In this document: positions 1,000-64,000 of the stretch, piece by piece | Layout of the letters: each line of letters begins with the position of its first letter | How positions within the stretch are numbered: the stretch's first letter is position 1 | Source: Sipunculus nudus | Taxonomy: Eukaryota; Annelida; Sipuncula; Golfingiida; Sipunculidae | Reading direction: 5' to 3' | DNA: 64,000 bases | NCBI GenBank assembly: GCA_026874595.1 | Contig: CM049308.1 | Span: 79,468,124-79,532,123 of the forward strand | The notes under the pieces: model-generated | What the model was told of the DNA's origin: nothing | The model's input: the letters and a program-made list of their open reading frames with translations, nothing else | Databases searched by the model: none | Made by a program: the position numbers and the translations under genes

Positions 1000-3630
1000 A
1001 ACAAGGGATCAATGGGTCAAGGCGCTCAGCTGTTACATATGATAAAAAAATATGATTTAGAAATGAGGCACATGCTTGTTTTGTGTGGAAATAAATATAA
1101 GCTGTATTATGAGTTGTGGGTGTTTAGCTTATGTATGATTTTGATAGTACCTTTGAAGACAGGGAAGAGGATTGATTTCGTTTATTTTATTAACAAATGA
1201 AGTGCTATTGTCACACAGATTTTGACTTGGCCATATATAAGCAGAACATATAATATAAGAGATTAACTATTTAATAAAAAATTATAAATTGTCCCAAATA
1301 TAATTTTTATTAAAAATAATAAGAGAATCGTATGATTTTTTCAAATAAAATACAACTGAAATGATTATTTAAATAATATCGAAGAATATATTCATGAATG
1401 GTTTCATTAATACAATTTGAAAGTATTTGCACTGGTATTCATATACTTTCATTTTTACCTGAATTCCCATTCTTATGCAAACAATTTTATAATGGAGTAC
1501 ATATTCATATTCGTCTTCAAATACATTTGCAAAGTATTCGCACCATGTCTGGTATTTATTCAGTTTTAACCAAACAATGATGATGAGAATCCAGAATATA
1601 CAAAATTCACACATTTAAATAATGATCATAAGTACCTGGTTTTATGGCTTTTATTCATATTAAAAAAAAATAAATGTAATATATTCATTTTGGACTAATT
1701 TCACATCAATGTACACACTAGACACAGCAGGAATCTATATTAATATTATCAACTGCATCTTAGTCTATCATTAATTTCCTTCATATGATCCCTAATGATT
1801 AGTAATGAAAAATATGATTTATATTTTTATCATTAAAATTGAACTGAAAAATACCATAGGTAACTGCATGGTGTTATTGAGAATACGTGACATTCTATCA
1901 ATCGATACAAGATTCTTATATCATCAGTAACTGCAAGTTAATTTCCAGTTATTATCAACTAACAAATTCCTTTCCCATTTTTCTTTAATTTGTTATTAAA
2001 AACCAATAAAAATTTATTAATTTTTTGTTTATTGTTGTGTTGTTTGTTAAAACTACTAGATGAGTTGGGTTGGACACCTGGATCAACTGTGGCTGGCCAT
2101 AAGCTGCCTGGCTGCCCCAGTGTATGCCTCATGTCAAGCGTGCATAATTTGATGAAAGGTCAACAAGGTCAACATACAGGTGACTCAAGAGGGGCTGGGG
2201 AGAGCTAAGGTCTGACATGGTCTCATAAAAACATTAATAAAAGCTACAATTTTTGGCCAATTTCTTTCAGCTTTCTAAACTAAAAAGCTGAAATCCTTAT
2301 GTATGCATGATATGAAAATTATATCAACAGTGCTCACAGGAAACAAACGTGCCATGGTCAAACTTTGGCAAAATTTAAGGTACTAATTTTATATTTATAC
2401 TAATAACTTATAAAATTTGAAAAATTCATAACTAATTTTAGGTATTCAATTGAATCTTGATAAAATAATGTTACATCCCTGACAAAAAATCTCTAGCTTC
2501 AGCAATCCTCTTGTTAAGGGAGTAAATATATTTCTTGATTTTTTACAAAGTGCATTATGTTTGGGCCCATAAGTTAAAACAATTACGCAATACTGACATC
2601 ATTTCTGGCATGTGCATAGAGAATGTATAGAAAAATATGTATATTATATATGATTAAAGTCAGATCAGTGGTTTTGATATTAGGCAGTTAGGAAGTGTAA
2701 CAATGGGTTTTTAATGGAAATATGAAGTTTTTCATTAATATCTCGAAGATATTAAGTCCTAGTGACCAAATTCTTGGCATGGTAGGGGATTTTGGAGACA
2801 TCTTATTGTATGCCAAATTTTAGGAACTGAGAGCTGAAGCTAGGGAGCTGAGCTCTTGCAAACTGCATAACACTAGCTTGATGTAAACAATATGTTACAA
2901 TGTGCTTGAAAACTTGAATTAAATCTACAATTTTTGATCAACTGGTTTCAAATTTTTTGTGTTAACAGACAAAATGCTAACAAAAACATGCAGTGAAAAT
3001 TAAATCCACAGTACTTACAGGAAAAAAACGTGCCATGGTCAAAGTTGGGCAAAATTTAAGGTACAAATTTTTTATTTTTGTTAATATTTTAAAAAATTTA
3101 AAAGATTTTGATCTAATTTTGGGTATACAATTTAATTTTGACTAATTAAAGTTATATAACTAGAAAAAAGTCCATAGCTTTAACATGTTTTGTGTTAAGT
3201 GATCAAATATCTTTCCTGATTTTTTACAAAATGCATTATGTTTTGGCCCATAACTTTTTTTATGTTATATAATACAGACATAATTTCTGGCATGTACATA
3301 GGAACTATATAGGGGAATATTTATGGTAAATATGAGGAAAAACAGATGAGTAGTTTTGATATTAGGCAGTCCTGAAGTGTGAAAATAGGTTTTTAATAAA
3401 AAATTGAGGTTTTTCCTTAATTTCTCAAAGGAACAAAGCCGCAAAGACCCAGTTTTCTGCTTGGTAGGAGATCTTGGGGACATCTAACATTGCCGAATTT
3501 TGGATTCCTAGGACTTACAGTTTCAAAACATGCCACATCTACGGATGGACGGACGGCATGACAGACGGACGGACAACGGACAATGGAACATGACTATAGC
3601 TCAGATGACTTATAGTCAGCTGAGCTAAAA
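1000..3630 (+). mobile_element. E-family interspersed element E1 (2.6 kb)
   Basis: The 5' end reads AACAAGGGATCAATGGGTCA, then GCTCAGCTG. The 3' end is a run of ACGGACGG-type simple repeats (3542-3585) and the terminal hairpin TAGCTCAGATGAC-TTATA-GTCAGCTGAGCTA followed by A's. The interior contains two diverged copies of a roughly 680-bp unit, near 2310 and 2990, each with ACGTGCCATGGTCAAA. Its reverse complement recurs at 41023-44405. No transposase or other coding capacity is evident, so it is non-autonomous. Boundaries are supported by the flanking dispersed sequence F, which is uninterrupted in intron 2. Confidence 0.75.
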
Positions 3631-3936
3631 ATCTTATAAAGCCTCTGTGATGGATATATGAGCTTGCTTATCTACAAGCTGTTTGTAAACACAGCAATGT
3701 TGATAAAAACAGTAAAATTTTATAACCTAGGGTGGTTGGTTGTTTTGTGAAGAAGTTTAAAGGACACTAGTCACAGAACGTCCTTTGCAAAATTCTGGTT
3801 CTCTGACTTGCTGCCAGAGGTCCTTGTTGAATGTGTGTTGATTATTTTGGCAGGCTCCCCACCCCATGTTATAAACACATTGGTGTGAGAAGAACAACCA
3901 TCCTGAGTGTGGTGGGATTTGCATTCTCTGGATAAT
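3631..3936 (+). repeat. Dispersed repeat F, right half
   Basis: The stretch TTATAAAGCC...TGTGATGGATATATGAG through CTACAAGCTGTTTG to GTCCTTGTTGAA matches intron 2 of the ARHGAP11A-like gene at about 32752-32970. With 940-999 it forms one copy split by E1. Its class is unknown and no coding potential is seen. Confidence 0.55.
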
Positions 3937-4832
3937 TGTATCCGCCAAAACAGAGTTTTGCGGATACTATGTTTTCAGCTCCACGCCGCCGCCACGTAGG
4001 TGTCCGGAGAACTCCTCCGTAACCGCTGGGCGGAATTTTACGAAACCCGGGATTATGTTCGGGTCACATGTGAACTGCTGTGCCCGGATTTTGTTTTGAC
4101 CTCTGACCTTTCCTCTGCGCTCTGCGTCCGTTTGTGCGTCTGTTTCCACACATAAACCATCATATCTCGGGAACCGTTTGACCGATCAGTAAATTTTTTT
4201 GCACAAATGTAGCCCTTGGAGAGCTTTATAACATACACAAAAAATGGTGGCGCCACCTGCAACCATGTTTGCACAGTGTCCATCTGTTCGTCTGCCTTGG
4301 GTTAAAATCACTCATATCTCTGCAGTGATTTGACTAATTCACCTGAAATTTGGCATGCGTATAAATCCTGCATAGCTTTTCTAATTTTGTGACAGGTGGC
4401 GCCACCTACATTCACGTTTACGCTGCACACATCCAAGCTCATATCTCGGGAACCGTTTGACGGATTGGGCCAAAATTTTGCATGTGTATAGATCTCACAT
4501 AGCTCTTTATCATACGCAAAACTGGTGGCGCCACCTTCAACCATTTTTGCACAGCGTCCAACTGTTTGTCTGCCACAGGCTAAAATCACTCATAAACATA
4601 TAGTGGTTTGACATATCTGCCTCAAATTTTGCATATGTATACAACTTGGACGGCTTTCTGGATTTTGTGGTAGGTGGCGCAACCTACATACACCATTTGG
4701 CTGCAGACATCCATGCTAATATGCAACACTTCACTCTATTTCCCCTTGCCGCTCAATCCATGCCTCACTTCACCCGTTCCACTCTGATTTAGGCGGATAC
4801 ACGTAGTCGCTTGTCGACTACCCGTATTCTAG
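3937..4832 (+). mobile_element. Helentron-like non-autonomous element H1
   Basis: The 5' end is a hairpin formed by GTATCCGCCAAAAC and GTTTTGCGGATAC. The 3' end has GCGGATAC again, then GTAGTCG-CTTGT-CGACTAC (7-bp stem), CCGTATT and the terminal CTAG followed by T. A hairpin about 10 nt before CTRR is the Helitron/Helentron 3' signature. The middle has GGTGGCGCCACC-type palindromes at 4246, 4395, 4524 and 4673, spaced 149/129/149, so a 278-bp dimeric tandem repeat. No protein is encoded. Confidence 0.72.
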
Positions 4833-7800
4833 TTTTTATAAAAGGTTTAAGGGACTATCTTGAGTTAATAGACATCAGATATTGGAAAAGGCCCGTTTTA
4901 TTTGCATAAACCAGTTTTATAATTCAATGGATATAAATTAGACTTGTTGCTTGGAGACCCCGGCCAACTAGTTAAAATACTGTGAGCTCTGCTTGGAATG
5001 AAGATTGTTGGATAACCACACCATCACATGGACCTAGACTTTTGTACAACAAATGTCAAGCATAATTGACCGTCATGCAGAAAATCCAGGAAAATTCATC
5101 AACTGAGGCAGCCTTAAATAGTCACGACCTTCACCACGCTCCACCAGAATCCACCGCATCATGCCAGTTCCTTCTTGGTATTGTGTATCTAAATATTGAT
5201 TAAGAATTAATCAAGTATGGTCTCATTTCTATAACTGTATTTATAAATAGATGGAACTTTTTTTAGCCATCTATGTCTGTCTCCATGAGCTGCTACCTGC
5301 CTTGGTACAGAGACTGGCCTACAGGCTTCCCAGGAAAACCTGAATAGTTCCAAAGAAATTAATTTCATACAACAATCTGCTGTGCGTATCCTGTTTCACT
5401 CAAATTAATTCCCATTTGACATGAACTGCAATGAAGGTAGAATGTGTTAATCTCCATTTTATAATGTTCCACAATCACTTTCTGAGAAGTGCATTTCAGA
5501 TGACAAGCCTCACCGGAACAATGCGATATATTCAGAGAATCTACTTGACAGTAATCAAGTTTTCAATGAATGAAAAGGTAGCAGAGGATGAATGATCATG
5601 AATAATAAATTTATTTGTGCGGTTCTTTACTTTGAAAGACAATTACTGTCAGTTACATGGGCTGTACATATTTCCTAGAAGACACATTCCGTGATCTTTA
5701 CAAATATCATGCAGCCATGTTTGTAAAAGATTTTATTCAAATACATTTACAGAATGATTCTAAAAGGAGATTTGTATGCACCACTAAAAATTAAGCTTAA
5801 ATAATCCATCCACAACTGCCATTAACCCTTACATACAATAGTTATGATTTTAATAATGATAACAGACTCTCTTCTGTGCCTAAATCAAATTTAGATGGCA
5901 ATTTTCACATGGTAACACTAACACAAATGCGGCTGGCTTGGACAAAAAGACAGCTGACTGTAGTAGTAAGCTGAGTTTCATGTCTCAACTCTGCTTGCAA
6001 AATGTCAACCGACATAAACTGACCTAAATGCCTATTCATTTGACGATGTTACAAATGTTTTATCTAAACAAGTTGTCTATATTACATGTGACATATTGCA
6101 TCCATTTTACATTTAACTAGTCTGTGATTAAGTATGGAGTATAGTTCATCCTGGTGGTATCATAAGCCAACACTTTCATACTTAAACAATAACACTGTCT
6201 CCTTTCAGCAAAAAGAAACAACAATAACATAACCTGAGACATTTCTTTCAGGCTTTTTTAGTTGCATAAGATTTGTTTTGTAATTGTATTATATTTTTCT
6301 CAAACCAAACTGTGCTGCACAAATTCCGTTCACTTCCGCTTAATGATATATCAGCAGCACCTCCTGATAAAATCGGCTCCGCTTTATCTTAACTGGGCTG
6401 GCAACCGCACAAAATTGCAGCGGCGCCAGGCTCTAGTACAAGGTTCCAATGAAGTTTCAGTATAAGAGAATTTAATCCTCCACAGTTGGGGCATCTTTTT
6501 CATGGAGAATTTTTATTTTGGTGATGATTTTCCTTTTGTGAATATCACAAATTTGAAACCCTCAAGAACAAAAGGCTTACCACAGTAATACATACTGTAA
6601 CCAACCATATAATCAGGATCCTGGGAAAACCATAACATCTATCAATAATTTGTAAATCCAATTAATTATTATAAATTGACTATATTAATTGCAGGAATCT
6701 CTCCAAAGTCTTGTCAAGTATTTATCATATCACTCTAGCAGCACTGTACTGATTGTTGTCAAAAACAAGTTATCTGATTTTTATATTGTTAATAGCTGTG
6801 TGCATTATACAGCTGGCAAATTATGATCAATTTAATACTGTTAAAGTCAGACTTGTGTGTATTAATTAATTCCTGATAATTATATGTAAAACCAAGGCAT
6901 AACTTGATAATGCAATTTCATTAATGATCTTTAAGTGGCTAATCATTATAATTTTAACAGTCACAAGTGTTAAAATATGGAAAAACTCTTCAAATAGCAC
7001 GGTTATCTTAAAATAAAAATTTGTGTATTTTTAAGTCTGGTACTTGGAAGAGGTACTATTTTTTTTTTTCCTTCCATTATTGCAGCCATTTATGTGTGTG
7101 CCATTTTTGCAGGTGTGCAATTTTTCCACGTGTGCAATTTTTCCACATCCCATTTTTATGTTCCCTTTAATGTCTATCACCTGTATCTTAAGTTGACACT
7201 GCATCACCTTTAGTCCAAGGTACAAACTTTAAATCATGTGAGCCATGGGTCATGACCCGATGCTGATGATTTTTGCTGCTGCACTGATCCAAATGAAGGT
7301 TATAGCATACATAAACACTATGTCTTAAAATTTCAGAAGTCTGCAGTCAAACTATCAATCATTTGGTGTCTCACAGGTTAATACTGGCCCTTATATAGAA
7401 CACAAAGCCCACTTTGGGCTGGCATTATTGCAGATGTTCCCCCTGAACAATCATAGTTTCACAGATACAGATCTATTTCCTGTATTAGTGAATTCATGGG
7501 GCCATTTGAACAACATTTGCTTGAGTACAAACAAAATGAATTTTGGTAACTACAATGGGAAAAGCCAATGATTTCAAATAAAAATCCTGTGGATAATTAA
7601 TAAAGTGAATATGATGATTATAATGGAACTTAGTTTAACGCTACATAATTATATACCTTCATGCTCTTGTCTAGTTCTGACTCTGAGCTGAAAATGACAA
7701 TCATTTCACAGCAACAAAAAGTTATTGTGAGCATAATACCTGATGATGGCGAAACTCACCAAGTGACAAAGCATAAATAGCTACAATGTCTGCATGATTA

Positions 7801-10800
7801 ATAAATTATATTACAGGTAATATAACACTAATTATAGTGACACTTTATGCAAGCACCTAAAGTAAGTGTGACAATGTGCACTGCACTCTTCATTGAAAAA
7901 GACTGAAAAATTGAAAGCATAAACACCCATTAACATTTCAGCTTTTAACTAAATCTGTAAAGCCTCCTGTGTGGCCTTCAGATTTAGTCTCTGAGAATAA
8001 CTTCTATTACCATGCATGACAAAATGTACACATTGTAAAAAAGATGCCACATAAGTTTAAGGGCACAACATCACAGTATCACATGGTAATATAATAATTA
8101 TGGGCTAACTTTAAATTGTCAGTTTCAATATGACATCACAGTATCACAGGTTATGTAATAATTAAGTGCTAACTTTAAATTGTCAGTCTCAATATTTAAT
8201 ATATACATATGCTGTATAAAGGCAATAAAAGGCAATAAAAGACCTAATAAAGAGGTTGTCACAGCTCATACCTTTATCTTTTGAAACACAGGCATACATG
8301 CACACGCTCATGCCTGTGCTACAATTGACATTTCTGAAGTCTTACTACTGAGCACACTGCCATCACGCCAAACCAATTCACAGTCGGTTGGTCCTGAACA
8401 AATGGCTGCAGATCACCATGGCCACAAGGACAGAATGGCAGTCTGCATTGAGGAGAGAAGGCTGTCCAGACGTTCTCATACCGCTGTCCTGATCAGGCTA
8501 GTATTGAACACTTTCCTGCCCATGTTAGTCAATATGGAGACCCAGATAATGGAAAAATCAGAAAGAAGGGGACCTACCCACTTGCGCTTAGTGGAGGTTC
8601 CAGTCTGCCACGCCTGCTGCCCAGTCCATGTTGCCGGCAAAAGTATCCTTGATAATTGCTGAAGGTATCCTTATTACTGGCTGCTGCAGCTCTGATATTC
8701 CAAACCCTGCTGGACCAGCCACACTGCCAGCCTAGCTTAATCTTATTTGCCAGCCCTACAGAAGTGTGTCAATAGGCAGCCAGTAGCCGATCTGCCAGGG
8801 TTATTGTAATATGTGCAGCCAGCACTGTTGCCTAAGATACCCTTCCCAGACAAATGACCTTTAACCTTACAAGGACAAGGTAACATGAATATTAAATGAA
8901 TTGAATGTCTTCCATGGATTTATCAAGATACGGCATGATGTCAGACGCCAGCTGGATCTCTAGCTTTCAAGAGCTTCTTCATGCGTGTGGACTAGCCCTG
9001 TGCCGGCTGGTTCTTATACCTGATGATTTACAAGACTCAAGCCTATGTCTATTGATGATTCTTTGAGATAAATTCATGAGGAATTCTTCCCTAACAGTCT
9101 TGTTAATTCATTCTTAAAATAAATCATTACTCGACTACATTTGGCCAGACTCATGATTTCCTTCAATCTTACTGGACAATACCTGTACAGGATTTCCGGC
9201 AATTAATTTGACCACACATTTGACATAATTATTATTCTGGCTTAACTTTGTCCATATATAATGACATAGCAGGTCCAAAATCATTTTTAATTGCTAATGC
9301 ATGTACTGACATCTCAGATTTTAATTTATTCAGAATTAGATACATATGAACATAAATTTACAGATTTAACATTTATTATTTTTTATTTGACAATACATGC
9401 TGATATGCTTGATGTTATACTGATTTCCATACTAATATAAAGAAAATTGAGATAATCACTAATTTTAACTTGACTCATGTATATGCACATTGGTAACACT
9501 TGACATGCACGTAAACAGACATTCCTTTTGTTCTTTCTAGACTGCACACAAGTACACTTATGCTAAATATAAACACAGTTAAGATTTTATTGATTATTAA
9601 TATTACCAATTTATTCTAACTAGACCTTGCATACAAACATTCCAGATATTAACTTATTTTGACTAAAATCTGAAAAAAAACATTAAATATTACTTTAATA
9701 TGCACATTATCAGAATGTTGCAAAGATAAATTTTTTCTTAATTAACTGAACCTGCTTAAAAGCCATAACATTAACATATATTATTAAAAGATACATATTT
9801 ATCACAATTTACTTAATTACAAAGGATAGTTCTTGGACAAAACTGCAGGTGGCTCTGCATATCAAATAAGAATGCAGGTAATAATTAATACAGTTCACAT
9901 TCCCATGAGCCTGTGACACTATTCAATATCAGCTGTAATTTTGTGATCTATCATCAGTTAAAAATAAATTGACTACCAACTGATAATCAGAATTTATCAG
10001 TTGTGTAGTAGTATGAAATTTCTGACTGTTTTCTGACCCTGTACATGGTCTTATAAGATATTTAGGCCTACATGTTTCCTAATTTATATGTTCTATGTGT
10101 GTGTGTATGTAACACCCTTAGATATGGATAATTCATAAACACAGTTTTTTTTCATGAGTTTGCTTGCATGAATTAAATGGAAGCTTAAATTTCCTCATCA
10201 CAAAGATTAAGGTTTATGCCAGACTTTGTAACTGATTATGTCACTGCAAAATCAATGATAAGATCAGTTTACATCAAAAGACCAATCATCAATATAACTG
10301 ATCACTGCAAGTGGACTGCTGCTGTGTTCAGGTCAAGTGAAAAAGTCCCAAGATATCACCAGAGACCCCAACAGGAGGCTAACCTTTATGGAAAATCAGG
10401 ATTGGCATCACCTGAGATAAACAAGTATAATCTTTCTTTGTCAATATAACAGACCCAAACATTTAGTGTCACTAATCACCAACAGATGTCACTGGTGTGG
10501 TGAAAACCATATCTAATGGATATTTTATACAATACAAAGATACATTTCCCTTTGTCATTTGTAAAAGTGGTGATGCACAGCCACGACACAGATCCTCATC
10601 CACAAAAGAAAATTACTCACCAGCTGACATAGATCAACCATTCTCAATTAAAAACAAGAAAATAATACAGCAATCACCAGTTACAAGAGTCCTAGTCACT
10701 AGGGATGGCTATCATCCATTATCAGGGTGGCATTATTATAAAATATCCATATTTTACAACAGGAGATTAAGTAAAATTTAACTAACACTGTAGCACATTT

Positions 10801-11340
10801 TTGATTAAGCAATAAGAGGAGAAAGACAACACTGTCTTGATCAAAATGAATTTTTCAGTTGTTCTAAATCTGCTTTGAAAAATCTTGAAAAACCAGCAAT
10901 GCTTTTTGGACGACACAGCTTGGATTAACCTGAAAATTTGTTTGTCTATTGTAACACTTAATAGAGAATTTAGTTTATGTTTCATATTGATTCAGGAATT
11001 CATCAGAGCAACCATTAATCATATTGATTCATTTTGGATTCTTAAATAACTGTAGAGTTGAAATAACTCTTGTATAAATCAATATGTATAATAAAAGTAA
11101 AAGTAAACTGAAAAATATAAATATATTATGTAGCTCCACCAGGAACCTGACCAAACTTTGGCATATGATACACAGAAAATTGTGTGTCATGGTTCACCAA
11201 CACCATTGTTGAATCACATGTGAGCTCTGGAGCAAAGAAAGCCCATAATACCAACAAATGGCTCTAGCTCTTCGTCAGGGTAAAGAAATTACTGTATCCC
11301 TCACAATGGTATAATATCCATTACAATAAAACTCATAAGG
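4833..11340. other. Gene-poor intergenic stretch
   Basis: I see no gene in these 6.5 kb. The sequence is AT-rich with short, composition-driven open frames. About 6540-6600 resembles the right end of the Tc1/mariner-like MITE family (AAACCCTC...ACCACAGTA), a possible fragment. About 8280-8830 is less AT-rich and more unique, but its 86-codon frame at 8402-8662 shows no recognisable domain. Confidence 0.4.
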
Positions 11341-11850
11341 TGATCTTGTTTTAAATGGTGTTCTAGATTACCCATAAAATTTAATGGATGGTTCTTTGGG
11401 TGTTTTCCTAACAAAAATGTCAAATAGTAAAAAAATGTCATTAAACAAGTTCAAAACTTACATATTGCATGTAATAAAAGTCAAGGTTGTGGTATTGGTA
11501 AAAGAGTTTGGTGATCTAGTTTTTAATGGTGATCTAGATTACCCATAAAATGTAATGAACAGTTCCTTGGGTGTTATCCTAACAAATATGTCAAAATGCA
11601 AAAAAAGTCATCAAAACAAGTTTATAACTTACATATTGCATGTAATAAAAGTCAAGGTTGTGGTATTGGTAAAACAGTTTGGTGATTTAGTTTTTAACGG
11701 TGATCTAGATTACCCATAAAATTTAATGAACAGTTCATTTTGGTGTTATCCTAACAAATATGTCAAAATGCAAAAATGTCATCAAAACAAGTTCATAACT
11801 TACATACTGCATGTAATATAAGTCAGGGTTGTGATTTTGTTAAGTGTTTG
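11341..11850 (+). repeat. 171-bp tandem repeat, about three units
   Basis: TCTAGATTACCCATAAAA recurs at 11362, 11533 and 11704, exactly 171 bp apart, with conserved flanks such as TTACATATTGCATGTAATA. A short related piece (ATTGCATGTAA...GTCAGGGTTG) reappears at about 13586-13640, beyond element E2. The array may therefore have been split by the E2 insertion. Confidence 0.8.
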
Positions 11851-12042
11851 TCCCCCCCCCCCCCTTCCTGTTCTTCCTGTCACTAACATTCATATTGCAT
11901 GAGTCTAAACAAAATTCATCATAAAATCATATTTACACCTCCTCTTTGTTTCAGTGAAGTTCCTGACAGACAAATAATTAGCCACAATGAGAACAATATC
12001 TAATAACCTGGCAAAGATATTGCCAGGTAAAATGGCATGGGC

Positions 12043-13515
12043 AACAAGGGACCCAGGGGACACTGTGCTCAGCTAAAGGGGGATGAACAACACTTCTGCA
12101 TATACATACAGGGCAAACAAAGCTTGATCTCCAGTTCTGCTTAGGCAGGAAAATAACGAAACAAATGTTTGTATTAGATCCTCATTTTGTTATCACATAA
12201 TTTTTTTTTATTTTATGTTTATATTTCTATACATTTCAAATATAATATATATATATCTGAATAAAAAAGTTGATTTATAATTCTATACTGCATTATCATA
12301 AATTTCAATCAGATAAAACCTCATCATGCATACAAATGTACATTTATTTTTTACCACAAAACATATCTTTTAAATTTGTAAAACAATAACTATCTATAAA
12401 TAATACTAAACAGATTTCACAATTTTATATTGTGCCTTTATTTATTGATAATTTGCTTCATATTTTATAAATCTATGCATAGTGATGGGTTTAATTATAT
12501 TTTAATTTGTTAAAATCTTTAAAAAGAAAATTGATTTCTTTAAAACTGTTACATTAACACAACACTGGCATCTTCTGGATTACTCCTGAAATTACATTTC
12601 CAGAAATGTTTTGTATATTGGAGTGAAAACACCACTACAATTAAGGAAATGCAGTGCAAACAATTACAATAACTGCATAACACTTGGTGGGGAGGGTTTG
12701 GGGATGGGGGTGATATGAGATTAACTGTACACCTGTCACAGCAGTCCCCCAGTGACTAACAAATCAGGAACCATGGCATAGCTGACTTACAGTGACCAGG
12801 AGTGAGTTATTGCATCTGGACAAGCAGTGATTACAATAGAGCTTCAAGTAGCCTAATTTTCAAGCTTTTATTTCAACTTTCAGATTTGAACTAATTAAAT
12901 ATGTATGTTTACATGCTGTGAAAATTAAATCAACAGTACTCACAGGAAAAAAAACATGCCATGTTCAAAGTTGAGCAAAATTTAGGGTACTGATTTAATT
13001 TTTATGCTAAAAAAAATTTACAAAATTAAGATCTAATTTAGGGACTACAATTGAATTTCATTAAAATAAGTTATAAACTTGGAAAAAAAGTCTCTAGCTT
13101 CAAAAATTTTCATGTTAAGTGAGCAAATTTTTTTCCTGATTTTTTACGAAGTCCAATATGTTCAAGCCCATAACTTATAGAAATTACAATTAACAGTCTT
13201 AATATCTGGCATTTATATAGGAAATATATAGAAGAATACTCCTGGTAAATATTCAGAATAACAGATAAGTGGTTTTGGTATTTTGGCAGTCCTGAAGTGT
13301 GATAATAGGTTTTTAATGGAAATAAGAGGTTTTTCCTTAATTTCTCTAAGGAACGAAGTCGCAGTGACCCAGTTTTCGATTTGGTAGGAGATCTTTGGGA
13401 TATCTAACAGTATACCAAATTTTGGATTTGTAGGTTTAACAGTTTCAAAATGTGCCAGTCTAAAAGACGGACAGACAGACGGAAAACGGACAACGACTAT
13501 AGCTCAGCTAAAAAT
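12043..13515 (+). mobile_element. E-family element E2
   Basis: It starts AACAAGGGACCCAGGGGACA, then GCTCAGCT. It ends in a short ACGGACAGAC run and a shortened terminal hairpin, CTATAGCTCAGCTAAAAAT. The first half matches E4 (ATAACACTTGGTGGG; Ca/G-rich tract near 12690). The second half has the unit containing ATGCCATGTTCAAAGTTGAG shared with E1 and E4. No coding capacity is seen. Just upstream, ACCTGGCAA-AGATA-TTGCCAGGT (12006-12028) is a perfect 9-bp-stem hairpin. Confidence 0.7.
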
Positions 13516-13767
13516 TGCTGTATTCAATAAAAATAGGTACAAGAACTAAATTTTAAAAAGAGAAATTCAAAACATCACAATCCAACATCACATATTGCAT
13601 GTAAATTAAGTCAGGGTTGTAGTATTGGTAAATGTGTTTGTTCTCCCTTTCCCTCACCCAACCCCTTTTTTTTCCTGCCAGTTTCTTTTATTTACTGTGA
13701 TCAAGATCTGTACAACAAATGCATATGCATCTGTAATTTGAATACAGGCTTTCGTTATGGAAGCGAA

Positions 13768-14162
13768 AGCTGTGTTTCCATTCATCCGTAAATCTCGTAC
13801 GTCTCGTACGCAAAAAATCGGATCCCTCTTTTTGAGATGAACTGTTTCCATATGTCCATTTTAATGTGCTCCGCATGCGTATCTGCAAAAACGGACAGCA
13901 TCGAAATGGATCCGTGAGTGATTCATCCGTTTTACGGATGGCAAAAATGCCTACATTTCCCAACAGTGCCCCGGCGCTGGGTGTAATGAGACATATTGAC
14001 CTTCTTCCTGCCTGTCGTCCTTGCAGTTTAAAAAGAGGCACGTTAAAGGGTATTCGCAAGAAAAATGTACGTACTTATGGAAACAGTTTGCGGATTGCGC
14101 ACTATAGAACGTACGTACCTCTTTTGCGGATACGTTTTTTGCGGATACATGGAAACACAGCT
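13768..14162. mobile_element. MITE-like element, 395 bp, CpG-rich
   Basis: The terminal inverted repeats are AGCTGTGTTTCCAT at the left and ATGGAAACACAGCT at the right, extending imperfectly to about 25 bp through ATCCG/CGGAT. The interior is much richer in CpG (CGTACG, GCGGAT, GGCGCTGG) than its surroundings. No clear target duplication is visible. It has no coding evidence; open frames in both strands arise from the higher GC content. Confidence 0.6.
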
Positions 14163-14263
14163 TAAAACACAAACCCTACTTGCTAGAACTAATCAAAGGG
14201 AGGTGGACAGCCTGACCACTTCAAAACATTCAATGGGAAAATATTAAAGTTGGTGGGACATGA

Positions 14264-14715: not shown

Positions 14716-14780
14716 ATTGCACAAATGCAGCCAAACCCATCTTTTTCTGAGATAAAGTAGCTACCAATGAAATAAGAATA

Positions 14781-18100: not shown

Positions 18101-18224
18101 CCAATTTTTGGCACCTGGATCCCTTTATCAGGACCTGGGGACATTTTTTTAGGTTTTATCATTACTCCTCCTCGGTTGGACCCCACCTTTCCTGCCCCTG
18201 TTATAGCTATAAAAAAAATCCAGC
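15121..18224. other. Intergenic stretch with a C homopolymer and an E-tail fragment
   Basis: No gene is seen. A run of 24 C lies at 15824-15847. At about 16750-16846, ACTTACAGTCAGCTGAGTTAAAA resembles a decayed 3' end of the E family, without a recognisable body. A G-run is at about 18023-18036. The remaining sequence is AT-rich with no conserved reading frame. Confidence 0.4.
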
Positions 18225-18232
18225 TTACATAT

Positions 18233-49500: not shown

Positions 49501-50808
49501 ATTAGTGAAACATCAGACTATGAGGCAGCGGGGGGTATCCCTAAAAGTGATAGTTCAAGCAGCATCCGTAGCAACACCAGTAACTGTAGGTCATCGAGAG
49601 AGCAATGCGTACAAAATTCCACTCCTGTTGATACCACAGCTGCTGCTGAGCCACACTTGCGTAAAAGTTGCTCGTACTCTGTAACCGGTGACAGGCCTGT
49701 ACCTGTAATTGATGGGAATAGAAGACAGAGTGCAGGTCCTAGGTTATTAGGACTGGCTAATAAAAAAACAAGTGGCCAGGCAGATAGCTCACAGCCTTTA
49801 ATGGAGTACTACCTAGCTGCACAAGAAAAAGCTAAATTACGGCGTGAGAGGGCGAGAGTGAAAGGCGGGTGTGATGCTTCTAAACTGGAGGATACTCTGG
49901 ATGAATCGGCTCCATTCCTGAAAGGTGCCGAAGTCAGGTTGCCTTCTCATAACAGCGTAAAAGAACTGCAGGAGAAGAATGCTGGGAAAGTTATGGCAAG
50001 TGTGCAAAAAATTGATGAACACCCGAAGTCTAGTCACAGTTCGGTGTCACCAGAGACACAGGAGATATTGGAACGGCATGCTGAACCCCTACGCTTCCCG
50101 AGTTCCACATCACGTGGCAGGTCTCCTGTCAGAATCCCATCCATATTTGTTAAAAACGATAAAGACGCAGCAAAATTCAGAGACTTGGCCTGTGCCTCAC
50201 TACGAATGTCTCCTGTACCCAAAGGCAGACCTAATATTCCTATCAGTACAAACCTTGTGAAATCTTCTGTAGTGGAGCAGGCGGTCAGTAGACTTGGGCA
50301 TGCTGTGGAGGCGGATCCCACACGGCAGGGCGAAAAAGTAGTTGTAGATGCCCCAGGACACACTCCAAAACATTTACCACAAAAGAAATTTGTCACAGTA
50401 GAAAACACTGGCCCTGTTGATCCAGACGCTACACCCAAAGCACGCAGGGCTTTAGACTGTGGCGATGTGGGACCAAACAGGACACCCCTTCGAGATAATA
50501 TTGATGTTTCTAAACCTGTGTTACCACCAGGACCAAAAGGTGATAAACCGCCTGGCATGACCCCACGAATCAAGGCTCCCATTATCCCAACAAACAGTAT
50601 AAGTAAGCGGTTATTGCAGCATCAGTTTGATGTCACCCCCATGCGTGGCAATCCAAAACGGGCCACTCACCGCTCACCCATCAAGCCAGTCAAGCGACTG
50701 GACTCACCCTGTGGAAGAAAGTCACCAAGGAGACGATCACCACTGAAGCAAGCAGGGCAGAGAGGTTTAAGTCCGGTCCCATTCACTGGTGGCAATGGTA
50801 ATTTCTGA
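30874..50808 (+). CDS. ARHGAP11A: ARHGAP11A-like Rho GTPase-activating protein, 10-exon gene model
   Basis: Joined exons: 30874-31002, 32236-32324, 33056-33152, 33849-34416, 36447-36687, 37511-37593, 38154-38225, 39984-40119, 46966-47068, 48595-50808 (3732 nt, 1243 residues plus stop). All introns are GT-AG and phases stay in frame. RhoGAP domains speed GTP hydrolysis on Rho GTPases; vertebrate ARHGAP11A acts on RhoA and in mitosis/cytokinesis. The domain spans roughly residues 56-248. Visible blocks are VFGNSLQ and CGYVPRFLV, the arginine finger in EGIFRKAGS (R93), LIKQFFRELPE (K127, R131) and NKMDSYNLAV. The family block APNLL reads APSLM (S208). GCFSPK (480-485) and the basic RKRKAS patch also resemble vertebrate ARHGAP11A. 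The tail is long and probably disordered, and the protein is longer than the roughly 1020-residue human one. In-frame stops precede the ATG (TAA at 30853) and A is at -3. The ortholog name rests on remembered vertebrate sequence, not a search. Confidence 0.9.
31003..32235 (+). other. Intron 1 of the ARHGAP11A-like gene
   Basis: The intron has no recognisable mobile element. It contains a (TA)n microsatellite at about 31557-31597, followed by a short (TG)n tract at about 31605-31617. Confidence 0.8.
32236..32324 (+). CDS. ARHGAP11A: ARHGAP11A-like exon 2
   Basis: This encodes residues 44-72 plus two bases of R73. The acceptor is a T-rich tract ending TGCAG and the donor is CCCAG|GTAAGC. The reading VFGNSLQ...CGYVPRFLV aligns with the vertebrate IFGVPFN...YGHIPSFLV segment that begins the RhoGAP fold. 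Confidence 0.9.
32325..33055 (+). other. Intron 2 with an uninterrupted copy of dispersed repeat F
   Basis: Positions about 32705-32970 match 940-999 joined to 3631-3850. This is therefore the unoccupied version of the site where E1 sits. Confidence 0.6.
33056..33152 (+). CDS. ARHGAP11A: ARHGAP11A-like exon 3 (arginine finger)
   Basis: This completes R73 and encodes residues 74-105. It carries MENHLKDEGIFRKAGS, where R93 is the arginine finger that RhoGAPs insert into the GTPase active site. The acceptor is TTTCAG and the donor is AAG|GTATTT. The intron after it is phase 0, in the same place as the vertebrate ALK/NKV junction region of the protein. Confidence 0.92.
33153..33848 (+). other. 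Intron 3
   Basis: An AT-rich intron of 696 bp with no repeat that I recognise. Confidence 0.8.
33849..34416 (+). CDS. ARHGAP11A: ARHGAP11A-like exon 4 (bulk of RhoGAP domain)
   Basis: This encodes residues 106-294 and one base of the next codon. It contains the conserved helix LIKQFFRELPE (126-135), the LLCLLL helix, NKMDSYNLAV (194-203) and APSLM (206-210). The exon ends in a very basic stretch, KTKKKKRRSGS, at about 282-292. The acceptor is TTTTACAG and the donor is CAAG|GTGAGA. Serine 208 sits where human ARHGAP11A and most RhoGAPs have the catalytic-site asparagine. Confidence 0.93.
34480..35726. mobile_element. 1.25-kb inverted-repeat element in intron 4
   Basis: The left end CAGGGTTGGGTTTTATCTGG mirrors the right end AAAACTGCCAACCCTG. 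The inverted repeats extend about 100 bp and are built from repeated GGATAAAAC/GTTTTATCC motifs. CAGGGTTGG-type ends suggest a hAT-related non-autonomous element, but I see no convincing 8-bp target duplication. The interior has no transposase frame. Confidence 0.6.
36130..36406. mobile_element. PIF/Harbinger-like MITE in intron 4 (277 bp)
   Basis: The ends are GGCCAAAAAAAATAAAAGGT at the left and the inverted form ending TTTTTTGGCC at the right, sharing about 33 bp including GGTTCTCAGGCAC. It is flanked by TTA on both sides (36127-36129 and 36407-36409), the 3-bp TWA duplication typical of Harbinger elements. It ends 40 bp before exon 5. Confidence 0.75.
36447..36687 (+). CDS. ARHGAP11A: ARHGAP11A-like exon 5 (serine-rich linker)
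   Basis: This encodes residues 295-374. It begins GLMNNISNSFSKWRNKDK, matching the position and character of the vertebrate segment with GALNKFK. It continues into a Ser/Ala-rich stretch and ends with the basic patch MRKRKAS. The acceptor is TTTCAG and the donor is AAAAA|GTGAGC, leaving two bases that join exon 6 to make a lysine codon. Confidence 0.85.
36688..37510 (+). other. Intron 5
   Basis: An 823-bp intron. I see no clear repeat or coding sequence. Confidence 0.75.
37511..37593 (+). CDS. ARHGAP11A: ARHGAP11A-like exon 6
   Basis: This encodes residues 375-402 and one base of the next codon. It reads KAILSKMPQMSALGSTPFTP and on to AAKVR, a Ser/Thr-Pro linker. The acceptor is ATTACAG and the donor is AGAT|GTAAGT. 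The phase (2 in, 1 out) fits its neighbours exactly. Confidence 0.82.
37594..39983 (+). other. Introns 6 and 7, or one intron if exon 7 is skipped
   Basis: Apart from the candidate exon at 38154-38225, these 2.4 kb show no mobile element that I recognise. Confidence 0.6.
38154..38225 (+). CDS. ARHGAP11A: ARHGAP11A-like exon 7, possible cassette exon
   Basis: This 72-nt exon is open in the required frame and encodes 24 residues, including SMIGRRQSKKGG and QKGLPP. Its acceptor GTTGTAG has a weak pyrimidine tract; its donor GGGG|GTAGGT is good. It enters and leaves in phase 1, so leaving it out keeps the frame: exon 6 would join exon 8 as VR-S-RAAQF instead of VR-C...A-RAAQF. Either form is plausible, so it may be alternatively spliced or may not be an exon. 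Confidence 0.5.
39984..40119 (+). CDS. ARHGAP11A: ARHGAP11A-like exon 8
   Basis: This encodes residues 427-471 plus two bases of G472. It reads RAAQFALDSPSIHFTDDSQ and ends QYSPMIKSKG. The acceptor is CATTCCAG and the donor is AAAGG|GTAGGT. The following intron is 6.8 kb and almost entirely repeat. Confidence 0.83.
41023..44405 (-). mobile_element. E-family element E5 in intron 8, 3'-truncated and interrupted
   Basis: This is the reverse complement of E1. On the minus strand it begins near 44405 (ACAAGGGACCTATGGGTCAC) and follows E1 colinearly, including both 680-bp units, to 41023, where the match stops before the simple repeat and terminal hairpin. Element H3 (893 bp) interrupts it. Without H3 it is about 2.49 kb against about 2.51 kb for the same part of E1. 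Confidence 0.8.
41931..42823 (+). mobile_element. Helentron-like element H3 nested in E5
   Basis: It starts TAGTATCC, with the hairpin partner GTTTTGCGGATAC. It ends GTAGTCG-CTTGT-CGACTAC-CCGTATTCTAG, nearly identical to H1. GGTGGCGCCACC-type palindromes are at 42237, 42386, 42515 and 42664, with spacing 149/129/149 exactly as in H1. The E1 sequence shows the uninterrupted target (GCGTAA joined to TTGTTTTAA), so there is no target-site duplication and insertion fell between A and T, as expected for rolling-circle elements. Confidence 0.8.
44631..46850 (-). mobile_element. E-family element E6 in intron 8 (tandem-unit subfamily)
   Basis: On the minus strand it begins ACAAGTGACCAATGGGGGCT, then CAGCC, near 46850. 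It ends with the hairpin TAGCTCAGATGAC...GTCAGCTGAGCTA and A's at 44631. The body is diverged 337-bp-type units with TATGGGTAACAGAGACC, decaying and shortening toward its 5' end (46300-46640). No H insert is present, unlike E3 and E7. Confidence 0.72.
46966..47068 (+). CDS. ARHGAP11A: ARHGAP11A-like exon 9 (GCFSPK block)
   Basis: This encodes G472-Q506, with VTKTGCFSPKTTKRRS and GFFRRLSGSKD. The GCFSPK followed by basic residues matches the vertebrate ARHGAP11A block AGCFSPK followed by RRSLRL, supporting orthology outside the GAP domain. The acceptor is a tandem TAGTAG. Use of the second AG (exon start 46969) would drop arginine 473 only. The donor is CAG|GTTAGA and the exit is phase 0. Confidence 0.87.
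47146..47167 (+). repeat. T homopolymer (22 bases) in intron 9
   Basis: A plain poly-T tract lies about 20 bp upstream of the intron 9 MITE. Confidence 0.85.
47187..47547. mobile_element. Tc1/mariner-like MITE, copy 2, in intron 9 (361 bp)
   Basis: The ends are CTGTGGTTTGCTTTATATTC and the inverted form ending AACCACAG. TA flanks both sides. It shares ends and the CGAAATTGCGAAATT-type right part with the copy at 14781-15120. Confidence 0.68.
47548..48594 (+). other. Remainder of intron 9
   Basis: No repeat family seen elsewhere in the window is recognised in these 1.05 kb. The acceptor tract TTGTTATTGTTTCAG ends it. Confidence 0.6.
48595..50808 (+). CDS. ARHGAP11A: ARHGAP11A-like exon 10 (long disordered C-terminal tail)
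   Basis: This 2214-nt final exon encodes residues 507-1243 and the stop. Visible features are a basic S/T-P start (FRRHKRTPSSPAR), an acidic run at about 588-605, a KEN tripeptide (722-724), and repeated DQS/LDQ motifs around 728-745. There is also a predicted basic helix after PLMEYYLAAQEKAK and many S/T-P sites. The last 50 residues are basic and SP-rich (RSPIK, KSPRRR, RSPLK), fitting a nuclear-localisation and CDK-phosphorylated region. The acceptor is TTGTTTCAG. No globular domain is evident. Confidence 0.88.
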   Translation, partial: PLPSCGLQESPDVAYRLASTKLNTSGTPQHKKKNSLFRRHKRTPSSPARLITPSLTAEELTAMARQAAMTKHGRECISLQTDDIDHEDADVEDEGDEEQLSRRGRSSLNGEGTPGLRRGRPNSVNNGLPPQRYVPSPNRSQQDAENMGCRSHDADSDADDEMGDGMACDEEDMDTSQAQAFSTTIIYAHHAPDCGLPSDSKVIDLSRLDMLDSEPKENYEEALDQSELPMDQSLQGDSLDQGFLGEGLEGVDPLDISGVAYTNSPQNVLDNIDQEKVDADGFKMPLAVKTIESDAESLNKSVISETSDYEAAGGIPKSDSSSSIRSNTSNCRSSREQCVQNSTPVDTTAAAEPHLRKSCSYSVTGDRPVPVIDGNRRQSAGPRLLGLANKKTSGQADSSQPLMEYYLAAQEKAKLRRERARVKGGCDASKLEDTLDESAPFLKGAEVRLPSHNSVKELQEKNAGKVMASVQKIDEHPKSSHSSVSPETQEILERHAEPLRFPSSTSRGRSPVRIPSIFVKNDKDAAKFRDLACASLRMSPVPKGRPNIPISTNLVKSSVVEQAVSRLGHAVEADPTRQGEKVVVDAPGHTPKHLPQKKFVTVENTGPVDPDATPKARRALDCGDVGPNRTPLRDNIDVSKPVLPPGPKGDKPPGMTPRIKAPIIPTNSISKRLLQHQFDVTPMRGNPKRATHRSPIKPVKRLDSPCGRKSPRRRSPLKQAGQRGLSPVPFTGGNGNF

Positions 50809-53168
50809 AACTCTAGGCATGAACAGCATTGGACATGGGTACTAACAAGGTGTGCATGACTAATCAATTATATAAATATGAAATGGTAAAACTATATTTT
50901 AGAGGCCAGCTAAAATGTCTTCCTTATTTTTAGTGTTTTTATTCTTGATTTTGATAAGATCCCTGTGCAGCATAGAAGCCAAGCAGACATAATAGGCACC
51001 AGTATAATAGTTTATCTACATGAACCAGCTGCCCCTGGTCAGAGTTCCTGTTTTTGGGGGACAGAGGAGGGGTTACCTTGTGGTAAAGATCATGGCCGGG
51101 GGGGCTTAGATTGGAAAAACCTTAAAATTAGACAAAAACTTTTGCCTGAAAGTGCTGCACTTATTCTATCCATTACACCACCACACTTCAGTAAATGCCT
51201 ATTTTAGCATATTTTGTTAAAAACAACCATGTGACTATCCACAGTAAATGAATGATCAAAATTTCACACGAAGAAGCAAGAACAGGAGATCTTAAGCTGA
51301 CTATAAAACTTTGACGAATGAGCTGACCTCTGATATATAGTTAAACCAAATGAACTTACTATATGATTATATTACACCATTTACAGACATGATTGTCTTA
51401 GTAGTCTTCCCAGCAATGATACAAAATTAGATCATGTTTTTGTAGCTGTGATTTACCAGTATTTTCCAGCAGCCAAATTGATGCAGTTTCTACCTGTGAA
51501 ATTGCTCCCAGTGAATTACAGTGAATGTTACAGATTTACCAAAGTGATTTTCATTGATTATCCAACTCTTGCCTGTGAATAGAGCTTGCTGATAATCCCC
51601 CGTACAGAAAGTCAAACACCTTGTTAAGGTTCTTTCACCATGATTTGTCTAATTAGTTGACAAAGTCTTTAGTTCATTTTAAGCACTGGCAGTAATTTGT
51701 ATCTTTTCTTGTCTTCTTAGAAAAATTGTCTTTCAATTTTTGGAAATTGTCAATTGATCAGTTTTGCATTGGCAGCATCACTTATAAATGCTTATCTTAA
51801 TTGTTATTGAGCAGGTCTACATTGTTTTTTAAAAAGACAAATACTCTTGAAAACAATTAATGCAAGTGCAAGTATCCACAAGCGATCTAATAGGTTAGTT
51901 ATATAGCACATATAACACCTCTGTTAGAGACTAATCCAGCACATTATGCCCAAGGGAGAGTTAACGGTTTCCATTTTGGTATTAAGATAATATTTACAGA
52001 TTTTTTTGCTTACTAAGTACTTCTGTTTAGGGAGTATTTGACACGTATGGGGCATGGTAAGCACTAACATCCATCGTGAATCACCTGAACACATTTATAA
52101 AAAACAATTGTCTTTTTGGTTTCTCCTTACTTAAAGCAGTTTATGTGTAGGGAGAAGTAAATACTCATTAGGCATGTTTTGTACACACATGTACAGTTGA
52201 ACTAAGATTATATGAATGCCCTATATCTGATACATTTTTATCTCAAATGTTTAAAGGAGTACCAGGACTTTAACCATATATCTGAACATTGTTGTAAAAT
52301 TGTTTAAAGTATATTGAAAAGAATTGTTGACAAGATTAGTTCATGATTAATAGGCTTAGTCTGTGATTGATGGGTTTAGTTTGTGCTTAATGGTCTTACT
52401 TTGTGCTGGTCTAATATAACAATTTGCACAATTATTTCAAGCGCAAATGTAAACATATTCAACAAATGCCATCACTAGTAAAAAAATTGCACTATATGAA
52501 AGACTAAATATTGAAGCAGGGTTTTTGTTGTGTCACACAGTGGTTGAGTGGAATTAGTTACAGAACAAATGTTGTGTGACTGATACATTGGGTGTATATA
52601 ATCTCCTGATCTGTGGATTTTTTGCTAAACATTATCAAGCAGTTGCTTTTACTTTTCAGATACCTGTGTGTGAAGATGAAAGTCAAGTTCTTACCATCAT
52701 ATATGATGCCCAACCAGGTGGACTGTAGAATGTCCCTGCAAATTGTCAGAGTATACTAACCTTTGTGCTTTTGATCTGTCAGGTTTACTGACTGACCCTT
52801 GAACATATTACTCAGCTACACTCAGGGTGTGGTAAAATTAACACACTGTGGCAGAGATGCTGTGTCAGATGTGGCGTGGTCAGGGGTAACTTATCTATGT
52901 AGATGATCTTATGGATTTTTATATGAATGTACAGTATGGTCTTCAATCTGCCATGGTGCAACATTACTCCTCCCTGTTAAGATCTGTGAATGTTTTTCCA
53001 CCACACACTGCCAGGTATTTTAAATTACTTTCTTTTCAGTTTGGGAGGAATGTCTATCAAAGTCTGTAAATCAATAACCCCACTGTCATAAGAGCTACTT
53101 AAATGCTTCAAACATTTTGTCACAGAAATTATAATACTTACACAAAAAAACAGTACAGAGAAAGCATT

Positions 53169-60560: not shown

Positions 60561-61135
60561 CAGCCACCAACCAAGTTTGAGGGGTCTGTCTCGACTGAGG
60601 TGTCACGGTACTGTCAAAAGAGATGAATGGAAGACGCTTGATGGGCTGTCTAGGTTAACAACTGGTTCCTATCTGGACTGGATTCATGAGTGTCAGAGCG
60701 CGCCGGTTTGCCATGCACATTGCAACTTAAGGTTTCCTGTCCAGGTCCCCTGAAACTTGGCCTGAGGCTTCAAGTTACATAGTGTTGGTGTTGAATCATA
60801 AATTTATACCTTCGGATTTGTAGGATGTTGGCAAGTTTGAGTACTGAGTGGACGAACCCTAATTTGAATTCCGCCAGATACTCCAGGACAAAATGATAAA
60901 ATCTTGATTGAACCACAGAGATTCGTTCTGTTTTATTAAGAGGTTATTACTTACGGATTATTCCTAGCCCCACACATCCTGAAATCTGTATGGTATGATT
61001 ACCTTCATTCTCATTCAGTAAATGAGACCACTAAAAAGACGTGAACATATCCTTTCAAAGAAGAAGGAGCTTATATCTCTTTATTTTTCTAAGCCATATA
61101 TCACCTCAAAATAGTTGCAATTTCCACCTCTGATG
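60561..61135. other. Stretch between the retrotransposon relic and E7
   Basis: No gene or clear repeat is seen. The left part may still belong to the decayed retrotransposon. Confidence 0.35.
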
Positions 61136-64000
61136 GTTTTTTAGCTCAGCTGACTGAAAGTCATCTGAGCTATAGCGATCACTCTTTGTCCGTCTGTCCG
61201 TCCGTTAACCAGGCACAAATCGTAACCGCTGAACCTAGAACCTTGTAACTTGGGATTCTGAGAGGTCCATGAAAAATCTCCTTGGAAACCAGAAATTAGG
61301 TCTCTGTTACCCATATCCTTCGAGCTATGGGGCCCCAAAGTACCCCCAAGAAAAGTCAAAAATTTCATACAAAAACTTCAATATCTCATTAACTACTTGA
61401 CTGATGGTCATGATTTTTGGCATACATATTGATCATGAGATGTTCCATCACTTCCTGCAGACTGGTGGCGCCACCTGTATTTTTCGATATTTTACAAATT
61501 TTTTTTTCTCTATTTTTGAGACCGTTAAAAATGTGAACATCTGTTAACAAGGCACAAATTGTAAAGCCTAGACCTAGAATCTTCATTCTTGACACCTGAA
61601 TTTTTCGATTTTTTTCCTCTATTTTTGAGACGTTTAAAGATGCTGTCATCTGTTAACGTGGCACAAATCGTAACCGCTGGACCTAGAATCTTCATTCTCG
61701 ACACACTGAGAAACCTATTAAAAGTCTCCGTGGAAACCATAAATTAGATCTCTGTTACCCATATCCTTCGAGCTATGGGGCCCCAAAGCACTCCCAGAAA
61801 AGTAAAAATTTTCATACAAAAACTTCAATATCTCATTAACTACTTGACTGATGGTCATGATTTTTGGCATACGTATTGATCATGAGATGTTCCATAAGTT
61901 CCTGCAGACTGGTGGCGCCACCTGTATTTTTCGATTTTTTTACAATTTTTTCCTCTATTTTTGAGACGTTTAAAGATGCTGTCATCTGTTAACGTGGCAC
62001 AAATCGTAACCGCTGTACCTAGAATCTTCATTCTCGACACACTGAGAAACCTATTAAAAGTCTCCGTGGAAACCATAAATTAGATCTCTGTTACCCATAT
62101 CCTTCGAGCTATGGGGCCCCAAAGTATCCCCCAGAAAAGTAAAAAATTTCATACAAAAACTTCAATATCTCATTAACTACTTGACTGATGGTCATGATTT
62201 TTGGCATACGTATTGATCATGAGATGTCCCATCACTTCCTGCAGACTGGTGGCGCCACCTGAATTTTTCGATTTTTTACGAATTTAAAAATGTGAACAGC
62301 TGTTAACAGGGCACAAATCATAAAGACTGGACCTAGAATCTTCATTCTTGACACACTGAGAGGTCCATAAAAAGTCTGTATGGAAACCTGAAATAAGGTC
62401 TCTGTTACCCATATCCTTTGAGCTATTGGGGGCTTCCAATAACCCCCCAGAATAATGGAAAATTTGATAAAAACAAACTGCAACATCTCAATAACTACAA
62501 CACTGATGGTCATGATTTTTGGCATACATATTGATCAAGAGGTGTTTCATGCAGACTGGTGATGCCACCTGTATTTTTTCAAATTTTCACAATTTTTTTT
62601 TCTCTCATTTTGAGACCTTTCAGGATGTAGTTATCTGTCAACAGGGTACAAACCGTAAGGACTGGATCTAGAATCTTCATTGTTGACACACAGGGAGACC
62701 CATGATAAGTCTCCATGGACACCTGAAATTAGGTCTCTGTTACCCATATCCTTTGAGCTATGGCACTCCAAAGTACAGCTCAGAATAATGGAAAATTTGA
62801 TACAAAAGCTGAAGTATCTGAACAACTAATGCAGAGATCACCATAATTGTTTTCATGGATATTGATCATGGAGTGTTTCATCAGTTTCTGCAGACTGGTG
62901 GCACCACCTGTATTTGTTCGGGTTTTTTTACGAATTTTTTCTCTATTTTTGAGACCTTTAAAGTTATGAACATCTGTTAACAGGGCACAAATCATTAAAA
63001 CTGGACCTAGAATCGTCATTCTTGACACACAGGGAGACCCATGAAAAGTCTCCATGGAAACCTGAAATTAGGTCTCTCTTACCCATATTCTTTAAGCTGT
63101 ATGGCTCCAAATTACCCCCCAGAATAATGGAAAATTTGATACAAAAACTGCAGTATCTCAATAACTACAACACTGATGGTCATGATTTTCGGCATACATA
63201 TTGATCATGACCTGTTCCATCAGTTTCTGCAGACTGGGTGCGCCACCTCTATTCTTTTTCAAATTTTTACGATTTTTTTTCTTTTTTTGATACCTTTAAA
63301 GATGTGGTTATCTGTCAACAGGGTACAAATCGCAACAACTGGACCTAGAATCTTCATTCTTGTCATGCAAGAAGGCCCATGAAAAGTGCCTGTGGAAACT
63401 TAAAATTAGGTCTCTGTTACCCATATCCTTCAAGCTATAGGACTCCGAAGTATCCCTCAGAATAATGGACCATTTGATACAAAAGCTGAAGTATCTGAAC
63501 AACTAATGGGGACATCACCATGATTCTATGCATGGATATTGATGTTTGTAAGTGTTTTTATTAGTTTCTGCAGACTGGAGGAGCCACCTGTATTTTTGTA
63601 CCCGCCAAAACGAAGTTTTGTGGATACTATGTTTTTGACCGGGTTCCTCCGCCGTTGCCGCGTTCGTTTCCAGAGAGCTCCTCTGGGACTTGATTTTATC
63701 AGCTTTCCAAGCTCATATCTCGGGAACCGTTTGACTGATCAGGAAATAAAATTTATACTAATGTAGCCCTTGGATAGCTCTATAACATACACAAAAATGG
63801 TGGCGCCACCTGTAACCATGTTTGCACAGTGTCCATCTGTTCATCTGCCTTTGGTTAAAATCACTCATATCTCTGCAGTGAATTGACTAATTCACCTGAA
63901 ATTCGGCATGCGTATACATCCTGGATAGCTTTCTTGATTTTATGACAGGTGGCGCCACCTACATTCTCATTCACGCTGATGACATCCAAGCTCATATTTC
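61136..64000 (-). mobile_element. E-family element E7 with nested H4, cut by the window end
   Basis: Its 3' terminus (TTTTTTAGCTCAGCTGACTG, then the CGTCTGTCCGTCCG simple repeat) is at the left. Tandem 337-bp-type units follow, with GGTGGCGCCACC near 61465, 61913 and 62249 and variants near 62567, 62899 and 63239. At 63597 an H element interrupts the unit at the same junction as in E3. The 5' end lies beyond the window. The order and orientation of E and H parts equal E3. Confidence 0.72.
63597..64000 (+). mobile_element. Helentron-like element H4, 5' part, cut by the window end
   Basis: It starts with the hairpin GTACCCGCCAAAAC/GTTTTGTGGATAC, followed by the TCCGCCG-rich patch and CATATCTCGGGAACCG. 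GGTGGCGCCACC palindromes are at about 63801 and 63949, 148-149 bp apart as in H1 and H3. The 3' end is outside the window. Confidence 0.7.

Follow-up and report, generated by a model that had tools for sequence, protein, structure and literature searches.

How can a group of repeated elements keep the same two ends when the DNA between those ends is unrelated? This question is raised by a stretch of 64,000 nucleotides from Sipunculus nudus (assembly GCA_026874595.1, contig CM049308.1, positions 79,468,124 to 79,532,123 of the forward strand; hereafter the window), in which an earlier note described a family of elements, the E family, with a palindromic 5' end, a hairpin 3' end and interiors that differ from group to group. 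The note suspected that one machinery mobilizes these elements by recognizing their ends, and it knew of no published name for them. A name exists. The E elements are very probably non-autonomous Helentrons (HINEs), a class that includes Pearl and Cg_HINE in bivalves and DINE-1 in flies, with ends that would be recognized in trans by the Rep/helicase of an autonomous Helentron and interiors that would be replaceable. This assignment reverses the orientation of the elements. What had been drawn as a 3' hairpin corresponds to the 5' subterminal inverted repeat (subTIR) of a HINE and its nearby inverted repeat (IR), and what had been drawn as a 5' palindrome corresponds to the HINE 3' palindrome.

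Seven Copies with Shared Ends

The presence of E copies with shared ends is borne out by motif counts, which lie above chance, and by profile searches. The left-end motif (left and right as in the earlier drawing) has 17 matches with at most 3 mismatches where 2.16 are expected in the window, some of which count a single palindrome twice, once per strand, or fall at unrelated sites by chance, and the hairpin arm has 15 matches with at most 2 mismatches where 0.77 are expected. For each end, a profile was trained on five copies and run over the window with an inclusion threshold; every training copy is recovered, with E<1e-10 for the left ends and E<1e-20 for the right ends. Beyond the training set, matches that pass the threshold include a left end at 46851 on the minus strand (E=4e-4), which completes the E6 copy at 44631-46848, and two right ends, one at 16794 with E=3.5e-9 and one at 13476 with E=0.0012. 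The second of these, at 13476-13509, is a partial right end of E2, and the remaining untrained matches that pass are the opposite strand of the five hairpins.

Seven related elements are present in the window, and the starts of six of them are visible, one in degenerate form. The copy numbers used here are the most likely match to those of the earlier note, strands are given in HINE orientation, opposite to its drawing, and the letters A, B and C denote types of interior. The seven putative HINEs are:

1000-3631, minus strand: E1, type A, both ends present, two units 681 bp apart and about 1.2 kb of unique sequence
12043-13514, minus strand: E2, type B, both ends present, inner part of the 5' hairpin deleted
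19349-22799, minus strand: E3, type C, both ends present, 337-bp units, nested N element inside
23595-25484, minus strand: E4, type B, both ends present, subTIR pair matching at 11 of 11 positions
41017-44403, plus strand: E5, type A, HINE 5' end (hairpin) missing, nested N element inside
44631-46848, plus strand: E6, type C, both ends present, degenerate 3' end, without an N element
61138-64000, plus strand: E7, type C, cut by the window edge, with only the beginning of its nested N element in view

E4 contains 29 consecutive G at 24587-24615.

Architecture of the Ends

Read in HINE orientation, the elements open with TTTTT, the subTIR AGCTCAGCTGAC, a short spacer and the inverted partner GTCATCTGAGCTA, followed by a stretch that leads into a GTCC/GTCT run. 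The central units are followed by the inverse subTIR GTCAGCTGAGC, a few bases, a short and variable palindrome GACCCATGGGTC, and CTTGTT. This order of parts, which is that of Cg_HINE and DINE-1, is among the grounds for the HINE assignment.

The subTIR and IR together fold into a hairpin with 13 pairs, a single mismatch and a 5-nt spacer. This hairpin is intact in five of the seven copies; in E2 an internal deletion has collapsed it, and E5 lacks that whole end. In each of the five intact copies it folds at -10.6 kcal/mol, and none of 200 shuffles folds as well. Motif matching and folding place these 5' subTIR and IR hairpins, and Tandem Repeats Finder the microsatellite of E3, at the following positions:

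3597-3627, minus strand: 5' hairpin of E1
22765-22795, minus strand: 5' hairpin of E3
25450-25480, minus strand: 5' hairpin of E4
44635-44665, plus strand: 5' hairpin of E6
61142-61172, plus strand: 5' hairpin of E7
22688-22750, minus strand: microsatellite of E3, (GACA)/(GACGGACA) on the plus strand and of GTCY type in HINE orientation

The microsatellites of E1, E2, E4, E6 and E7, read by eye, are shorter and imperfect.

The earlier note had also claimed that the two ends carry inverted copies of one sequence. The subTIR pair, which in HINEs measures about 11-15 bp, could be scored in five copies, since the partner end is missing from E5 and lies beyond the window in E7, and it matches at 11 of 11 positions in E3 and E4, a level reached by 3 and 2 of 2000 random pairs, respectively. 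The same two copies retain the palindrome best, with 7 of 8 half-pairs (56 and 62 of 3000 random 34-mers reach this), while E5 keeps it in part, with 6 of 8 (498 of 3000). None of the five copies with two ends (E1, E2, E3, E4 and E6) has a duplicated flank, and a T-run stands at the 5' border.

Constant Ends around Swapped Interiors

The first 39 bp are identical at 36 to 39 positions across the 10 pairs of the five intact copies. The last 38 bp agree at 25 to 32 positions across the 10 pairs of E1 to E5, where random pairs have a mean of 10.2 and a 99.9th percentile of 20.

Between these ends, the grouping of interiors described earlier is confirmed for each of the three types, by identity blocks or by tandem period. 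Type A comprises E1 and E5, which align in two blocks at 92% and 90% identity and have two units 681 bp apart. Type B comprises E2 and E4, 80% identical over 1.48 kb, with a single unit of type A's kind. Type C (E3, E6 and E7) consists of tandem units with a period of 326-339 bp. Tandem repeats at the center, as in types A and C, are an optional feature of HINEs. Types A and B have in common about 640 bp adjoining the hairpin (77-85%) and diverge beyond it. When either is compared with type C on the plus strand (E<=1e-3), similarity, the nested N element aside, extends over no more than the opening 38-88 bp and the final 33-35 bp; some pairs have similarity at one end only, or none at this threshold. 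Conservation of ends between types with unrelated interiors is the pattern expected if only the ends are recognized in trans.

A Second Family Nested in the First

The 280-bp units found in E3, E5 and E7 belong to a separate nested element, N, which is HINE-like and has subTIRs of its own. Its copies are:

3937-4833, plus strand: N1, 280-bp units, standing alone outside the E elements
41932-42824, plus strand: N2, nested in E5, with E1 as paralogous empty site (T^T, no target-site duplication)
19532-20704, minus strand: N3, nested in E3, in the T-run of a 337-bp unit
63597-64000, plus strand: N4, of which only the start is present, inside E7 in the position that corresponds to that of N3

N starts with GTATCCGCC and its inverted partner, which fold in the three copies tested (z of -7.5, -5.4 and -6.3; in each, no shuffle out of 200 does as well), and it ends with GGCGGATAC, a stem-loop and CTAGT. 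This terminal stem-loop is equalled by 3 of 200 shuffles in N1 and N2, where it is identical, and by 33 of 200 in N3. In E5, N2 splits GCGTAAT|TGTTTTAA, a sequence that is uninterrupted in the paralogue E1, and it sits between two Ts without a target-site duplication. In E3 and E7, N lies inside the T-run of one 337-bp unit, and the neighboring units have no N. The E5 junction can also be read as A^T (GTAA|TTG), which would make N a canonical Helitron; its terminal CTAG agrees with this, but the subTIR layout favors a HINE.

A 12-bp Palindrome in Unrelated Repeats

The central repeats of N and of type C are unrelated apart from a 12-bp palindrome, GGTGGCGCCACC. It has 25 matches with at most 1 mismatch (18 exact) at sites from 270 to 63959, where 0.04 are expected. 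Thirteen lie in the 280-bp units of N, 11 in the 337-bp units of type C and one stands alone at 270; tandem copies are not independent, so these counts really represent two or three independent occurrences. In the open literature searched, the palindrome occurs only in work on a bacterial endochitinase. It might be a functional module, serving protein binding, recombination or priming, through which satellite arrays grow and are exchanged between Helentron ends; this would explain the swapping of interiors, although we consider it unlikely. Its occurrence in unrelated central repeats offers a small, testable lead on the origin of such arrays.

Weighing the Assignment

Three other explanations of the E family compete with the HINE assignment. 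A derivative of canonical Helitrons, in the orientation of the earlier note, would begin with 5'-TC, carry a hairpin shortly before a 3'-CTRR and insert between A and T. The hairpin does run into CTAA, which is compatible with CTRR, and in the excerpts of PMC4067079 drawn on here the absence of a target-site duplication and a 3' palindrome are typical of canonical Helitrons as well. The shared start, however, is AACAAGGG, without 5'-TC, and the CTA lies inside the hairpin, whereas the same source places the hairpin about 11 bp before the end. All five intact ends reach AAAAA and continue with T, C, T, T or A (T in E6), so that A^T is not constant, and it is HINEs that carry a subTIR, an IR and a microsatellite. 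A canonical origin is therefore very improbable.

The inverted copies at both ends would also suit a cut-and-paste miniature inverted-repeat transposable element (MITE) with terminal inverted repeats, and HINEs themselves were once called MITEs according to the portions of PMC4067079 and PMC7492417 used here. That the repeats are subterminal and asymmetric, lying 5 nt from one end and about 25 nt from the other, and that flank duplication is absent from every two-ended copy, make a MITE scarcely credible. We give equally little credence to the proposal that the elements are not mobile at all but belong to a dispersed satellite or arose by local segmental duplication, with borders that coincide by chance. 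In its favor are the large share of tandem arrays in type C and the position of all copies within one 64-kb window; against it, the same two end modules surround three types of interior, and the flanks shown differ between copies.

Several observations weigh against the HINE assignment. A subTIR match of 9 of 11, as found in E1, E2 and E6, is reached by 204-236 of 2000 random pairs (about 10-12%) and for that reason is not notable alone. In the same three copies the 3' palindrome is at chance level, and in none of six copies does it fold better than shuffles (38 to 164 of 200 equal it). The palindromic end is clear in E3 and E4 and partial in E5. The 3' end of E6 matches those of E1 to E5 at 18-21 of 38 positions without gaps, close to the upper limit of what random pairs reach. 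The 5' terminus of five Ts is near, but outside, the 2-4 nt reported for HINEs of mites, no empty site was found for any E element itself, and the likeness to Cg_HINE and Pearl is one of described layout. Finally, six-frame Pfam scans of 42.7 of the 64 kb, with 21.3 kb outside them, find no Rep/helicase domain.

We nevertheless favor the HINE assignment, which suggests how interiors could be exchanged. Following the published model, an autonomous Helentron elsewhere in the genome would supply a Rep/helicase that recognizes the E ends and copies one strand by rolling circle, and the copied strand would insert into T-rich DNA. Interiors would be replaceable because only the ends matter to this machinery; the ends are probably constant because a borrowed copying enzyme needs them. 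Replacement could proceed by insertion of another element, as seen with the nested N in E3, E5 and E7. It could also result from a change in the number of tandem units, or from end bypass and capture. The single end-recognizing machinery of the earlier note is partly supported on this reading, with the orientation reversed, and a rolling-circle machinery of this kind is the explanation of HINE movement in PMC4067079 and PMC7492417, as far as the parts used here go.

Search for an Autonomous Partner

An autonomous partner would encode a Rep/helicase and an endonuclease between the same ends. The Pfam collection includes a model of the Helitron N-terminal domain. Outside the scans, a few edge bases apart, lie 1-996, 12036-13515, 18401-23589, 35471-35899, 40881-50809 (except one open reading frame) and 60781-64000; E3, E5, E6 and E7 were not included. 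The only matches in the scanned 42.7 kb are RhoGAP and, below the cut-off, DUF2105 (E=0.049), and neither E1 nor E4 has a match in any of the six frames. Recovery of RhoGAP is a positive control for the six-frame method, not for Helitron domains. Two degraded ends lie on either side of E2:

16794-16847, minus strand: degraded HINE 5' end, an orphan that has a GAC-rich stretch of its own (profile E=3.5e-9)
7230-7258, minus strand: degraded sequence that may be a HINE 3' end, short of the inclusion threshold (profile E=0.028; 20-26 of 38 positions shared with other copies)

These could bound an old autonomous element of 9.6 kb, with E2 inside, but six-frame scans of 7200-12035 and 13516-18400 give no Pfam family. 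Two unrelated degraded ends are as likely as one old element of this length.

The RhoGAP domain belongs to an exon of an ARHGAP11A-like gene at 33741-34571, for which the best solved match is 3eap_A (Rho GTPase-activating protein 11A; E=7e-24); such a gene points to an animal host. A 756-aa open frame at 48538-50808 has no Pfam match and might be a later exon of that gene. Two further repeats are not linked to the E family: a 171-bp tandem array of 2.9 copies at 11339-11833 and a 37-bp minisatellite of 12 copies at 14272-14714.

Comparison with Known Systems

Pearl elements of bivalves reportedly go back to Gaffney et al. 2003. They resemble the E family in their short arrays of central repeats and are re-categorized as non-autonomous Helentrons in the part of PMC7492417 used here, but their repeats are about 160 bp long, against 280, 337 and about 680 bp in the window.

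The closest described layout is that of Cg_HINE in the oyster Crassostrea gigas. The excerpts of PMC7492417 give 11 such elements the same order of parts: a 5' subTIR of 11-12 bp, a complementary IR after 1-12 bp, a microsatellite (GTCY/GTCC/GTCK, similar in several elements), a satellite-like array, a 3' subTIR and a palindrome, with oligo-T targets and no target-site duplication. The oyster layout is given again in the passages used from PMC11136912. Some Cg_HINE elements have two arrays; in the E family, by contrast, a nested element with ends of its own supplies the second array, and the units of types A and B are longer, at about 580-680 bp, and accompanied by long unique stretches. Cg_HINE_3 and Cg_HINE_6 have related flanks around completely unrelated repeats (PMC7492417, same excerpts), a counterpart of the interior types described here.

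HINEs in general, as outlined in the excerpts of PMC4067079, have subTIRs and a 3' palindrome and enter T-rich targets without modifying them, and DINE-1 adds the IR and the microsatellite. The DINE-1/HINE elements of Drosophila, mites and Culex share with the E family the subTIRs, the IR near the 5' subTIR and the microsatellite, and probably also a 3' stem-loop, a preference for insertion at TT and the lack of protein coding. They differ in having known autonomous partners, in the 13-bp subTIR of DINE-1 and in their 3' palindrome, which is weaker in the E family (PMC4067079, same excerpts).

The E family may be undescribed as a particular family, although its kind is already published. In the open literature searched, its four end strings occur in nine papers, none of them on transposons as judged by title and the start of the abstract, and its hairpin pattern has no exact match in collections of viral and genome contigs. 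In these 64 kb, one pair of ends encloses three types of interior, and a HINE-like second family has inserted into members of the first, in one case with a paralogue that preserves the empty site. These observations support the published picture in which Helentron ends carry a satellite-like cargo that can be exchanged, and they make nested insertion visible as a further route of such exchange.

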